From: Calliopsis andreniformis
Lineage: Eukaryota; Arthropoda; Insecta; Hymenoptera; Andrenidae
Assembly (NCBI RefSeq): GCF_051401765.1
Contig: NC_135073.1
Span: 496,001-560,000, forward strand
Length of the DNA: 64,000 nt
Direction of reading: 5' to 3'
The notes under the pieces were generated by a model, which saw only the letters and a program-made list of their open reading frames with translations, searched no databases and had not been told where the DNA came from. The translations under genes were made by a program, and so were the position numbers. Shown here one piece after another: positions 28,306 through 34,660 of this stretch; position 1 is the stretch's first letter; each line of letters begins with the position of its first letter.

Positions 28306-30136
28306 TATAGTGCATTCTGTTTAGAATTTAAACAATACACTAATTTTACTACAGATAATACATAATATGGATATATTATAGTACGTTTAAACCAAGCAAG
28401 CGAATACTACCAAATACTTAAAAATAAAATTTCTAGCGAGACTGTCTCTTCCACACGTACATAACGTAGAAAACGTCATTATGTCGCAGCAGGTAGTCGA
28501 CATCTTCACGCCTACGTACGGCGGTGACGAGACCGTCGCTGATTGAAGAAGTCGTACTTTCACAGTACCATGACATTCCTGGTTAATTGGTCGAAAGCTA
28601 CAGGGATAGCTAAAGACTCTGTTCCTCGGAACGTTACTTCCTGGTAGGGGAAAACGTAACTACATCCTTACCATTGACATTGTCTGTAACCGTGGGTCGC
28701 ATAATCTTTTGTAGAATACGTTACAAGGTGCAACATTTAACAAATGTTTTTCATAAATACAGAGTAATTCAGCTTAAGGAGGATATCTAAATATCTCCTT
28801 GGTTTTTAATAACCAAACTGTGAGTATAAAAATGATACGAATATAAATTTACAGCTAATGAAATTGTAAGTGAGTGAAGGTCATAAATCGATTGTAGTTA
28901 CTTACTACTTTACTCAAAGAGTCTTTCAAATTGTGTCGTCTAGAACACTGGCACAAAAATCGATTATTCTGAAGGGGCGTGAGATAGTAATCGTTTTCTC
29001 CCCAACACAGTGATAATGAGAAAAGGCGAGAGATTGAGGCTAGCTGTAGTTTCGTAATCGTCACTCGCGGATGGTCTAATTATTAGTAACTTTGCAGCAA
29101 TGAGATGCTGGTTCCATCTACCTCTTGTCTTGTCTTCATTTTTCGCATTCCACAAGCATGGATGATCGTGATATACAATGGCACCTTGCATCATGACCAA
29201 AACTTTAACTGATAAGTGGCTATTCCTACCACTTCTTGCAATTTTCTTCGCAAGGGAAGTGCATCAGATAATACCTGTCTAATGTAGTGGTCCAATACAC
29301 TAAGATAATAGTTAATACAGACTTTGAATGGAGAGCGGTTTCTTCACGAATTTAGGATAGTAGGAGTCTATGTGGTGTGCGGTCAAAAAGTAAAGTCTAC
29401 GATGTTTTATACCGAATAGTTTATTAAATAAAACTTAACAATAGAGATAATTTATACATAATATCACTCATGTCCAATAAAAGTGACATAACTTAGAAAA
29501 CATAGTTTACAAATTACGATCATAAGCAGTTTAATATAAGGTATATTTTGGTAAACGTACTTTCTTGAGTTGTATCACTTTTATCGCATGTAAGCGATAT
29601 ATTAAATAAAAGGAACGAAATTCAGATATAATATTAATTAATTAAATTTGGATCGTACTTACGAACTGAATTAAATATTGAATGTGTATATGTGATTATA
29701 ACTCTTTATAATTGTTACTTAAACTAAGCGCTGCCTTTTTATAATATTGAACATGTACATGAGTTTTATAATAATGGCTTCATGTATATCAAAATGCATT
29801 TTAGTTTATGAAGGTATTATGCAAAAATATAAATATTACGTGCATATAAGATCATAAGACATTCTATTTACAATGCGTCGGTACTAGCGACAGTAGTAGT
29901 AGACACACAATTGAAGAAGTTAGGGTGTTAGTTGATCTGTACTTGTCAAATTCTGAGTCGCTGTCTTAGTTATAGCTTACATAAGTGGTTTTCTGATTCT
30001 TAGTAGGACGAACCCGATTATCGACTATATGAATAAACATCTTTAGAGCAAATATGGGAGGTAGATTCCAGACATGAAACAACGAAAAAAATTCATGTAC
30101 TCATATATTCAGAAACGCTTAGCTCTTTATTTCTAC
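28306..30136. other. AT-rich stretch with one GC-richer segment, no gene confirmed
   Basis: A GC-richer segment at 28430-28700 contains an ATG frame (28481-28546, starting MSQQVVDIF) ending in TGA after 21 codons. It has a possible GT splice donor inside (CAGCAG then GTAGTC), but no recognisable product. Two overlapping minus-strand frames (28855-29200) are unremarkable. The 4 bases just before 30137 (CTAC) are the LTR target duplication. Confidence 0.35.
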
Positions 30137-30292
30137 TGTTACGTACGGAGAATATTTTCCGTCTACTCTCCCAAATATTCAAGTCTCTGCCTGTTAAGAG
30201 AAAACGCCCTAGCACTCTCGTTTTTTCGTTATCTTAATGTAAGCGCGACTCCGAGCAGCTGGGTAGCAACTATGACGATGTACCAACCGTGA

Positions 30293-30316
30293 GAAATTTC
30301 CTTATATGGAAATTTC
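30293..30316 (+). promoter_or_regulatory. CArG-box-like palindrome upstream of TATA
   Basis: GAAATTTCC and GGAAATTTC form perfect 9-bp inverted arms around TTATAT. The centre reads CCTTATATGG (30300-30309), which fits CC(A/T)6GG, the binding consensus of SRF-type MADS factors. It lies 34 bp upstream of the LTR TATA box. The second LTR copy loses similarity inside this palindrome (at about 34657). Binding is inferred only. Confidence 0.5.
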
Positions 30317-30343
30317 TAACGAATCCCCACTCATTTTTCGGCC

Positions 30344-30380
30344 TATATAAACTCAGAGATTTTAGCCCTAACGGGTTCAG
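30344..30380 (+). promoter_or_regulatory. LTR core promoter: TATATAAA and TCAG initiator-like site
   Basis: TATATAAA at 30344-30351 is followed by TCAG at 30377-30380, a spacing of about 30 bases that suits a TATA-initiator pair. This would mark the start of R, with U3 being 30137 to about 30378. Confidence 0.6.
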
Positions 30381-30792
30381 AACAGTACCGTCACGTTGAT
30401 AGTCAAGTTCGTCAGAGTTGGTTGCTATCCAGTTAGATCGGGCTAAAGTTCCCTTTCGAGTCTACAGTTAACCTCATAGAATCCGCGAGTCGGCATAAAT
30501 TCTATCTGGCAATTCCTACGACCACTCTGTAAGTCCCCGCATCGCCAGTGCGTTAACACCGTGCATTAAAATCATACACTTTACGCGACAACACTACACT
30601 GTACACTTGTACGTAAAGACTGATTTAGGATATATTCAAGTATTCATTGTAATTTTGCGTAGATTGCTTACAAACCTATAACTACCTTAAGCGATCCCAT
30701 TCGAAGTTGACAGATCCACCACGATACAGCTTAACCGCTCAAGTTGTATCAATTAATAATTTAAAAAGTTACGAGGCTCACTAACATCTCCT

Positions 30793-31271
30793 GCGGCTCA
30801 CTGATCTTACATCAGTTTCGTCCGCTTACCCTTACTTCCAAAGAAACTGCATTCAACCTAGTGGCTCCTCGATTTATTCGAGTTCGTCCACGAAAGCTAA
30901 CCTATCCTGTAGCTAACTGATTTTTACATCAGTTTCGTCTACTTCCTACAGCTACCTGATACCAGGTTCGTCTGTACATTATCCAACTTCCTTACAGCAC
31001 CCTGATTTCGCATCAGGCTCGTCTGTTCGAATTCGCCAACCTCCTTAACAGCACCTCAATTTAATTTGAGTTCGTCTGTAAAACTGATCCTAGTGACTCC
31101 CTGATTTCGCATCAGGTACGTTCACAAACTCACTCTCCTGCGGCTCACTGATCACCGATCAGTTTCGTCCGCAAGCACACCTATCCTCAGAGGCTACCTG
31201 ATTTTACGTCAGGTCCGTCCTCGTCTACAATAATCCTAACGGCTCACTGATCTCGCATCAGTTTCGTCCGT
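30793..31271 (+). repeat. Array of ten covarying hairpins in the LTR
   Basis: Ten units begin at 30793, 30861, 30909, 30948, 30994, 31048, 31093, 31140, 31190 and 31239. Nearly all fit the same plan: 4-nt stem, CTC/CTA/CAC, 4-6-nt stem, usually a 5-nt loop ending in C, stem partner, then TTCGT or a close variant, stem partner. Outer stems are GCGG/CCGC, GTGG/CCAC, GTAG/CTAC, ACAG/CTGT (three units), GTGA/TCAC, GCGG/CCGC, GAGG/CCTC and ACGG/CCGT. Inner stems include ACTGAT/ATCAGT, CTCGA/TCGAG, CCTGAT/ATCAGG, CTCAA/TTGAG and CCTGAT/GTCAGG (one T-G wobble). Both stems therefore covary across units while the internal loop stays constant. Linkers are pyrimidine-rich, usually with TCCT just before the stem. 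Spacing is 39-54 nt except the first (68). A possible core-less eleventh unit (GACGG...CCGTC, 31323-31352) lies at the LTR end. Confidence 0.9.
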
Positions 31272-31364
31272 GTACCAACTAACACATCAACCACTATATT
31301 CTTTGGAATTATACCTATCCTCGACGGTCTCTCGCGCTGCTCGCCTCCCGTCTCGTAACACTAC

Positions 31365-32640: not shown

Positions 32641-32658
32641 ATTTATATTTAAAAAGTA

Positions 32659-33942
32659 TTGGGTTGTAAAGAAAGTTCCTAGCGTTTTTTAGTAGGTGGC
32701 GCTGGAAGCGTGTGTCAGTTCAGTGTGTTCCTAAAACAAGAAATTTGTTTACATGTTCTGAAAGCTATTGTTTCAACGCGTCTCTCTGTGCAAGTGATTC
32801 TTGAATTCGTTAATTTTACAGCTACTTAATAGAAGAGTAAAGATGGAGGAAAATAAAGTGCATTTTCGTTATTTAATGGTTTTTTATTTGCGGAAAGGAA
32901 AGAACGCTGCACAAACAGTACGAAAGATTTGTGCTGTTTATGAAGAAGGTTCTATAGCTGAGAGTACCGTACGGAAATGGTTTGCTTGCTTTAAAAACGG
33001 CAATTTCGATTTGGGAGACGGCGAACGTTCTGGTAGGCTTTCAACTGCTAATGATAATCTAATCAAAACGCTGATTGAAAATGATCCATGGCAAACGATG
33101 CAGGGCATTGCACAGATAGCCAATACATCCCGTACAAGCGTTGCGAAACGTTTGGAGGCCTTGGAATTCGTAAGCCGTTACGATATTTGGGTACCGCACG
33201 ACTTATCAGAAAAGAACTTAATGAATCGCATTTCCGTAAGCGACTCACTTTTGAAACGAAATGAAAACGATACATTCTTAAAACGGCTAATCACGGGTGA
33301 TGAAAAATGGGTCTTATACAACAGTGTGCACCGGAAAAGGTCATGGGGAAAACAGACTGAGGCACCATTAACTACGGCAAAAGATGGTTTACACCCGAAA
33401 AAAGTTATACTCTGCATTTGGTGGGATTGGAAAGGTGTTTTGTACTATGAACTCCTATCGCATAATAGAACGATAAGTTCTGATACACATTGTTCTCAAC
33501 TGGGCCGATTAAAGGCAGCCGTCGAGGAAAAATGACCGGAATTAGCGAATCGGAAAGACGTCGTGTTCCAGCACAACGCCAGACCACACGTTTCTGTACA
33601 GACCCGGCAGAAGTTGCTGCAGTTTGGGTGGGATGTTCTTCCTCACCCACCATATTCACCTGATCTAGCACCATCAGATTTTCACTTATTTCGATCTCTA
33701 CAAAATTTTCTCAATGGTAAAAAGTTCGACTCCATAGAAGCTTGTAAGGACCATGGGGGCCAGTTCATCGAGCAGAAAAATGCCGAATTCTGGAAGAATG
33801 GAATCTTCAAGCTACCAAATATATGGCAAAAAGTAGTAGATCAAAGTGGCAAATACATCGTAGAATAAAATCAGGTATAAGAATATAAATTTTGTCTTTA
33901 AATTTTACTCAAAAAACGCTACGAACTTTCTTTCCAACCCAA
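32659..33942 (+). mobile_element. Mariner transposon, near-complete
   Basis: A 1,284-bp element with terminal inverted repeats that match at 30 of 32 positions (left TTGGGTTGTAAAGAAAGTTC..., right reverse complement TTGGGTTGGAAAGAAAGTTC...). It is flanked by the TA target duplication at 32657-32658 and 33943-33944. Its length is normal for mariner. It carries one transposase frame (32843-33868). It is inserted in the pogo-like relic 32277-34082. Confidence 0.96.
32843..33868 (+). pseudogene. Mariner transposase with one in-frame stop and a lost catalytic Asp
   Basis: The frame has 341 codons before the final TAA, close to the usual mariner length of about 345. Start: the ATG at 32843 (MEENKVHFRY) is chosen over the upstream in-frame ATG at 32801 because family members begin here. 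The N-terminal paired helix-turn-helix region (about residues 1-110) is followed by the linker motif WVPHDL (116-121). The first catalytic Asp is D153 (TGDEKW). Codon 231 is TGA (33533-33535) where Arg is expected (EKRPEL), the change a CGA codon makes by CpG deamination. The second catalytic Asp should lie 34 residues before D279 (LAPSD). That position is H244 (FQHNARPH instead of the usual HQDNARPH), and one residue also appears missing just before it. The third Asp (D279) is intact. The protein is therefore inactive for two independent reasons, although the rest is well preserved. Confidence 0.95.
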
Positions 33943-34284
33943 TAGTATAAGAAGAGTATAAAACAATAAAAAAATAAAAAATAAAAATAGTCATGAGAAA
34001 AGACGAATGTTCTACTATTCGAAAATTCTGTCAACCAAACAGTCATGTCTCTCTATTAATTCGGATACTAGAGGTTCTATTGTATTTTCCTTAATATTCT
34101 TCTATACTGAATACAATGATTATGATGGAAGGTCATTTAAGGTTACTAAAGGTCAATTACAATGAAAAATAAATTGTTTCTAGACTTTACTTTTGGTTAC
34201 ACTGCTGTTCCTGCTAGTATGACTGTTCAAAGTGATCACCTTAAACATCAATAATAAATATAACCCAATATGAAACTGCTAAAT

Positions 34285-34494: not shown

Positions 34495-34660
34495 TGTTAC
34501 CTACGGAAAATATTTTTCCTTACTCTTCCGAATATTCGAGTCTGTGTCTGTTAAAAAAAGGCTCTAGTAGTCTCGTTTTGTTTCGTTTATCTTATGCGAG
34601 CGTGACTCCGACCAGCTGGGTAGCAACCACAACGTTGTATCAACCGTGAGAAATTTCTAT
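34495..34660 (+). mobile_element. Truncated copy of the solo LTR's first 165 bp
   Basis: It begins TGTTACCTACGGA and matches 30137 to about 30300 along its length, including the block GACTCCGA(C/G)CAGCTGGGTAGCAAC and CAACCGTGAGAAATTTC. Similarity begins exactly at the LTR first base and ends inside the CArG-like palindrome. The TATA box and hairpin array are absent. Confidence 0.85.

Follow-up and report, generated by a model that had tools for sequence, protein, structure and literature searches.

Ten covarying hairpins in tandem within the long terminal repeat of a gypsy-class retroelement of Calliopsis andreniformis

The window (the whole stretch of 64,000 nucleotides from Calliopsis andreniformis that was analysed) contains, at positions 30793-31271, an array of ten hairpins in tandem that lies entirely inside a solo long terminal repeat (LTR; 30137-31360). 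The RNA structure of this array is well supported by pairing, by covariation and by comparison of old and young genomic copies, and it agrees with the proposal of the first-pass annotation (a reading of the letters alone) that the LTR holds a structured, multivalent RNA motif. As for its function, we infer, with rather less than even confidence, that selection maintains the array as an RNA structure in the U5 leader of a retroelement, where it would act as a multivalent site for the Gag protein in packaging and/or in a translation switch.

The ten units (Table 1) share a single plan, comprising an outer stem of 4 bp, a 5′ internal loop of 3 nt, an inner stem of 4-6 bp, a terminal loop of 4-6 nt, a 3′ internal loop of 5 nt and the closing 4-nt arm of the outer stem, and all of them (10/10) are on the + strand. 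The first-pass annotation had claimed one plan for nearly all ten units of this interval, and this part holds in full, while the usual terminal loop of 5 nt that it gave is corrected here to 4-6 nt. Two elements of the plan have letters that are fixed in 10/10 units, namely the C that opens the 5′ internal loop and the CGU (CGT in DNA) that ends the 3′ internal loop; none of the 50 sites of the 3′ internal loop varies among the 30 young genomic copies described below. Furthermore, a CCT, absent from the first-pass annotation, is found 0-2 nt before each of the ten units. The units are clearly homologous to one another, start 39-68 bp apart and are separated by spacers that are poor in G (9 G in 156 bases). 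A loose form of the plan has 206 non-overlapping + strand matches in the 64 kb, the ten units included, and thus about 1.5 would be expected per 479 bp.

Searches with a covariance model and of Rfam had been proposed as a check of the motif. A covariance model built from six units recovered nine units and, with filters off, also the tenth, unit 6, whereas elsewhere in the window it found only one weak partial match (3259, E 0.22). Rfam, on the other hand, returned nothing: its 4227 models gave no match at the gathering score in the window and none at E ≤ 10 in 30370-31360. A hammerhead or other ribozyme, considered because of GAAA- and CTGATG-like letters on the minus strand, was rejected since units 2 and 6 are without CTGAT and Rfam was empty; a minus-strand kink-turn or tandem G.A motif was likewise rejected, as the loop letters are not kept.

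Table 1. Features of the solo LTR and of the hairpin array in the window
Feature	Position	Strand	Evidence
Target site duplication CTAC, left copy	30133..30136		Direct match of flanks
Solo LTR, 1224 bp, ends TGTTACG...CGTAACA	30137..31360	+	Sequence ends and flanks
TATA box; transcript start probably near 30374, from spacing	30344..30351	+	Motif search
R plus U5 leader without ATG	30374..31360	+	ATG count against shuffles
Putative 5′ splice site GTAAGT, upstream of array	30529..30534	+	Motif; use putative
Putative polyadenylation signal ATTAAA	30565..30570	+	Motif search; use putative
Hairpin unit 1	30793..30825	+	Plan search, pairing count, covariance model
Hairpin unit 2	30861..30891	+	Plan search, pairing count, covariance model
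Hairpin unit 3	30909..30942	+	Plan search, pairing count, covariance model
Hairpin unit 4	30948..30975	+	Plan search, pairing count, covariance model
Hairpin unit 5	30994..31026	+	Plan search, pairing count, covariance model
Hairpin unit 6	31048..31079	+	Plan search, pairing count; covariance model only with filters off
Hairpin unit 7	31093..31125	+	Plan search, pairing count, covariance model
Hairpin unit 8	31140..31172	+	Plan search, pairing count, covariance model
Hairpin unit 9 (31208 wobble private to window copy)	31190..31222	+	Plan search, pairing count, young-copy comparison
Hairpin unit 10	31239..31271	+	Plan search, pairing count, covariance model
Target site duplication CTAC, right copy	31361..31364		Direct match of flanks

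All 96 designated pairs form in the window copy (95 Watson-Crick pairs, one wobble and no mismatch). The T-G wobble noted previously is indeed present but belongs to this copy alone, and the majority letters of the 30 young copies give 96/96 Watson-Crick pairs with no G-U pair. The claim that the stems change in matched pairs is borne out by a structural alignment of the ten units, in which two-sided changes occur at 8/10 pair positions, with pair types per position that include G-C/A-U, C-G/U-A/A-U and C-G/A-U. When the outer 3′ arms were dealt among the units, 40/40 outer pairs were reached in none of 200,000 shuffles, and on dealing the inner-core 3′ arms all pairs were kept in 0.013% of shuffles. 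Covariation was judged on the same alignment by means of shuffles and slid partners; its score of 0.676 compares with 0.294 ± 0.042 for shuffled arms (0/500 as high) and with at most 0.138 when the partner is slid. Since the shuffles ignore the relatedness of the units, the comparison of old with young copies weighs more.

The + strand of the array also folds better than 100 shuffles of it (z -4.29), while the preceding 411 nt does not fold better than its shuffles (z -0.64). In the unconstrained ensemble, the probability of the outer stem is low for units 2, 3 and 10 (0.05, 0.35 and 0.07, respectively) and that of the inner stem of unit 10 is 0.11. The minus strand is more stable than the + strand in 9/10 units. 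For RNA stems it is unusual that the young majority has no G-U pair, which counts against the RNA reading.

The 4-bp target duplication and the TG...CA ends of the LTR are those of a gypsy-class (Ty3/Metaviridae) element. When the array was searched against the DNA of the genome (489 contigs, 1,019,246,659 bases), 292 candidates emerged, and the 40 of these that were scored are all 99-100% identical to it. Thirty of the 40 scored loci constitute the young-copy set; both flanks were available for 18 of them and only one or neither for the other 12, and these copies are not all separate insertions, given the flanks common to L123/L125/L126 and to L122/L124/L132. Among the 18 loci with both flanks, the LTR is followed directly by AATTGGTGACAG, i.e., by internal sequence, at six and preceded by GGGGGAGA at two more, and ten are solo LTRs, with matching 4-bp flanks in nine. 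The sole miss is L149, where a young LTR adjoins an older one.

A copy flanked by an LTR on either side encodes, in the pieces examined, gag, an integrase with domains of the H2C2/rve type (PF17921, E 4.8e-21; PF00665, E 4.1e-9), a baculovirus-F-like env (Baculo_F, PF12259; E 6e-16 in L153 and, below the cut-off, 8.3e-4 in L152) and a Tudor-domain ORF. No Pfam family matched the gag piece, the start-of-pol piece or one ORF of L153, and gag was assigned by its position and its CCHC motif, its translation carrying CX2CX4HX4C, i.e., one CCHC zinc knuckle. A search with gag matched 15 proteins, the named ones being from the bees Lasioglossum, Colletes, Osmia and Anthophora. The same motif is present in 11/15 of these relatives, and the four without it are three 594-aa proteins that cover 76% of gag and one 220-aa fragment. 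From such sequence features, the LTR is predicted to belong to a young, env-bearing, errantivirus-like element of the gypsy class (Ty3/Metaviridae).

The Tudor-domain ORF (PF00567, E 1.1e-16) encodes 196 aa and follows env (L153:1262-1849, +). This env-bearing retroelement thus seems to carry a Tudor-domain gene, which is of interest for piRNA defence. In the window, a truncated and diverged 5′ piece of a second LTR is present 4.4 kb downstream (34495-34657; 82.6% to 30137-30300), and 32657-33944 holds a mariner-type transposon whose inverted ends are 34 nt long and whose ORF has Mos1-like HTH and DDE domains; a search of IMG/VR with this neighbouring mariner ORF found no match. At G000:C381, LTR copies spaced 12,200 bases apart occur twice, at ~53-66 kb and 160-172 kb (L122-L125); in both pairs the second LTR has GGGGGAGA before it and internal sequence after it, while the first LTRs are preceded by identical 8 bases. 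These pairs are perhaps head-to-tail elements with a common LTR in a duplicated segment.

For the comparison of old with young copies, a diverged set of 11 was used (L162, L175-L177, L189-L194 and a partial second copy in L149). L162 was found by sampling 20 stretches of 6 kb each, among which there were two LTR copies, and L189-L194 are six chosen among the lower-identity matches with a complete array, from 41 listed; other lower-identity matches (for example on C4, C5 and C1) and those with an incomplete array (C10:6674191 and C7) were left out of the set, as was position 30921 from the majority count, being a gap in 11/11 old copies. Between the majority letters of old and young copies, the array shows differences at 15 unpaired or spacer positions and at four stem positions, and the latter make up two complete compensatory Watson-Crick pairs. 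The first inner pair of unit 1 (30800/30816) is T-A in 11/11 old copies, while among the young copies it is A-T in 18/30 and a T.T mismatch in 12/30; the T.T copies represent the intermediate, a compensatory change caught half-way. The second outer pair of unit 3 is C-G in six, T-A in three, T-G in one and a gap in one of the 11 old copies and T-A in all 30 young ones. Two complete pairs would arise from four random stem sites with a probability of 8.3e-5. Slower change in the stems overall is not significant (Fisher P 0.098), and the orthologous compensations number only two, from one genome, which is a caveat on the reading as a selected structure. The first-pass annotation had proposed to look for covariation in other genomic copies, and compensatory changes common to many diverged copies are what was found.

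The 11 old copies provide 996 pair cells (and 60 gapped ones), of which 857 are unchanged. One-sided changes have left 72 cells broken and 44 as wobbles, while two-sided changes account for 22 Watson-Crick cells and one broken cell. The two shared pairs of units 1 and 3 contribute 17 of these 22; each of the remaining five is private and possibly a double transition by chance, apart from one change from A-T to T-A in L189. All eight core pairs are kept in 55/102 scorable old units, and 281/300 young units are fully paired. Freely broken stems in copies of the LTR had been named beforehand as evidence against a selected structure. Single old insertions do show such breakage, which is as expected of dead insertions. 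The old copies diverge from the young majority by 7.7% in the outer stems and by 8.5% in the inner ones; the internal loops differ by 9.3% on the 3′ side and 11.1% on the 5′ side, the terminal loops by 13.9% and the spacers by 10.1%. Divergence of the 3′ internal loop thus resembles that of the spacers (50/540 vs 169/1676 cells), which is as expected of dead copies and adds no support.

Promoter, polyadenylation and internal-boundary signals (Table 1) place the array in U5, and hence in the leader of the full-length RNA; R probably ends near 30590, and the R/U5 borders are putative. In the older LTR copy of L149, the ATTAAA is replaced by AATAAA. There is no ATG in R plus U5, where 8.1 are expected (0/2000 shuffles as low), while CAT, the ATG of the minus strand, is not clearly depleted (16 vs 19.5), so that the depletion is specific to the sense strand. 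As the next 136 nt up to the gag ATG (into L151) also hold no ATG, the AUG-free leader before gag extends over about 1.1 kb. Among the young copies, 23/30 have no ATG, 5/30 have one and 2/30 have two; the counts in four diverged copies are 2, 0, 1 and 2. The putative 5′ splice site at 30529 sits in 30522-30556, the longest run identical across the four diverged copies. A simple acceptor pattern found no splice acceptor before env, but a stretch ending in CAG just ahead of the env ATG, read by eye, could be a candidate acceptor. Because the putative donor is upstream of the array, spliced RNA may lose it, and the env RNA would do so if both sites are used.

Stems that are free to change and loop letters that are fixed form the pattern of a protein-binding RNA and, the Gag of this element having a CCHC knuckle, binding by Gag is favoured. 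The position in U5, the AUG-free leader, the possible env intron and the CCHC Gag together fit a mark on the unspliced genomic RNA best. We infer that in such a mark the stems could vary as long as they stay paired, the C and CGU signature of the internal loops would remain constant in all ten units, and the units, set apart by G-poor spacers, would form a multivalent binding site. Gag, through its single zinc knuckle, would bind the repeated loops on the full-length RNA and mark it for packaging, and accumulating Gag might switch this RNA away from translation and towards assembly, much as has been proposed for Idefix. Ribosomes would come to gag first because the leader has no AUG, and splicing of env would remove the array so that the mark is borne by genomic RNA only. 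Against the array as a packaging site speaks the location of retroviral packaging sites, which lie mostly after the primer site.

The main rival, which fits nearly as well as Gag, is a host RNA-binding protein that reads the array, either as an export element for the unspliced RNA that would act in the manner of the NXF1-binding constitutive transport element, in which fixed internal loops likewise lie between stems, or as a translation element (IRES or shunt) for the long structured leader, and we consider it possible, if on the unlikely side. Fixed internal-loop letters between variable stems and the perhaps intronic position of the array suit such a protein as well. The leader, however, has no match in Rfam even at E 10, the loops of constitutive transport elements are larger, and an AUG-free sequence of this length, which agrees with a translation element, suits scanning and internal entry equally. 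Translation of Idefix, of the gypsy superfamily, is both cap-dependent and cap-independent according to PMC3735527, which would be in line with a translation element. A defence-related role, in which the array serves host small-RNA or other defence proteins as a decoy or handle and perhaps works together with the Tudor-domain product, could also account for the tenfold multivalency and the presence of the Tudor-domain ORF in a copy of the element; this appears improbable, and the link of the array to that ORF is conjectural. More speculatively, the modular, ten-valent scaffold of covarying hairpins might gather a protein in many copies on every genomic RNA and so provide a countable mark that decides between translation, export and packaging, possibly along with the element's own Tudor-domain protein against the small-RNA defence of the host, a broader proposal that we regard as rather unlikely.

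An insulator in the DNA, template switching and plain decay fit less well. If the array acted as DNA, through ten protein-binding sites comparable with those of Su(Hw) in the gypsy insulator or by forming cruciforms, this would agree with the repetition of sites close to the 5′ end of the element at the spacing seen here and, as a demand on both strands, with the lack of G-U pairs in the young majority. A DNA-binding protein should nevertheless need fixed arm letters, whereas the arm letters of the array differ among units and change as matched pairs with pairing kept, and ATG is depleted on the sense strand only, which makes an element of this type quite improbable. Arm-to-arm template switching, a mutational artefact that keeps arms complementary without selection, would yield Watson-Crick pairs only and is compatible with the T.T intermediate; yet it should also have made the asymmetric internal loops pair, and these remain open and keep their letters; in addition, the broken and wobble cells of the old copies far outnumber the two-sided Watson-Crick cells, most of which are in the two shared pairs. 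We therefore find it very unlikely. Plain decay of a tandem repeat whose arms are complementary by chance is consistent with the evident homology of the units, but the shuffles, the slid partners and the compensations between old and young copies are so strongly against it that it is scarcely credible, as the first-pass annotation had already argued from the matched stems.

A hairpin array in an LTR was not found among the literature matches listed, which is a weak test of its absence from print, and in PMC13172572 (on insect endogenous retroviruses) the words 'hairpin' and 'leader' both have 0 occurrences. A strict hairpin-array pattern had no match in IMG/VR; a loose pattern matched at least 120 stretches, and the 80 listed have a single match each and were taken for chance. 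To our knowledge, the way in which insect LTR retroelements discriminate genomic from messenger RNA is poorly known. In this respect, the ten natural variants, the many genomic copies and the compensations between old and young copies are a ready-made data set for relating sequence to binding, in which the fixed C and CGU letters predict contact and the AUG-free leader adds a testable link to translation.

Among known systems, Drosophila Idefix reportedly (Meignin et al. 2003) has a structured 5′ leader, with Gag acting on its own leader RNA as a switch. The likeness lies in a gypsy-superfamily element with a structured leader on which its Gag acts, an action that in the present element is proposed from its features; the difference is that Idefix is not known to have a tandem array of ten covarying units, and here the structure is in U5. 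Retroviral packaging signals consist of several stem-loops near the 5′ end that are absent from spliced RNA and are read by zinc-knuckle Gag, but such a signal comprises a small number of dissimilar hairpins, most of them downstream of the primer site, in contrast to a single motif present ten times upstream of that site. In simple retroviruses, the NXF1-binding constitutive transport element resembles the array in its repeated internal loops with fixed letters between stems, but has two such loops, with other letters, in one long hairpin near the 3′ end. The gypsy insulator, with its reiterated Su(Hw) DNA sites, likewise belongs to an env-bearing gypsy element and repeats short sites close to its 5′ end, but these sites are DNA of fixed sequence without covarying arms. 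A structured retroelement leader is of a known kind, whereas a tandem array in U5 that repeats one covarying hairpin ten times is, as far as we have seen, new.
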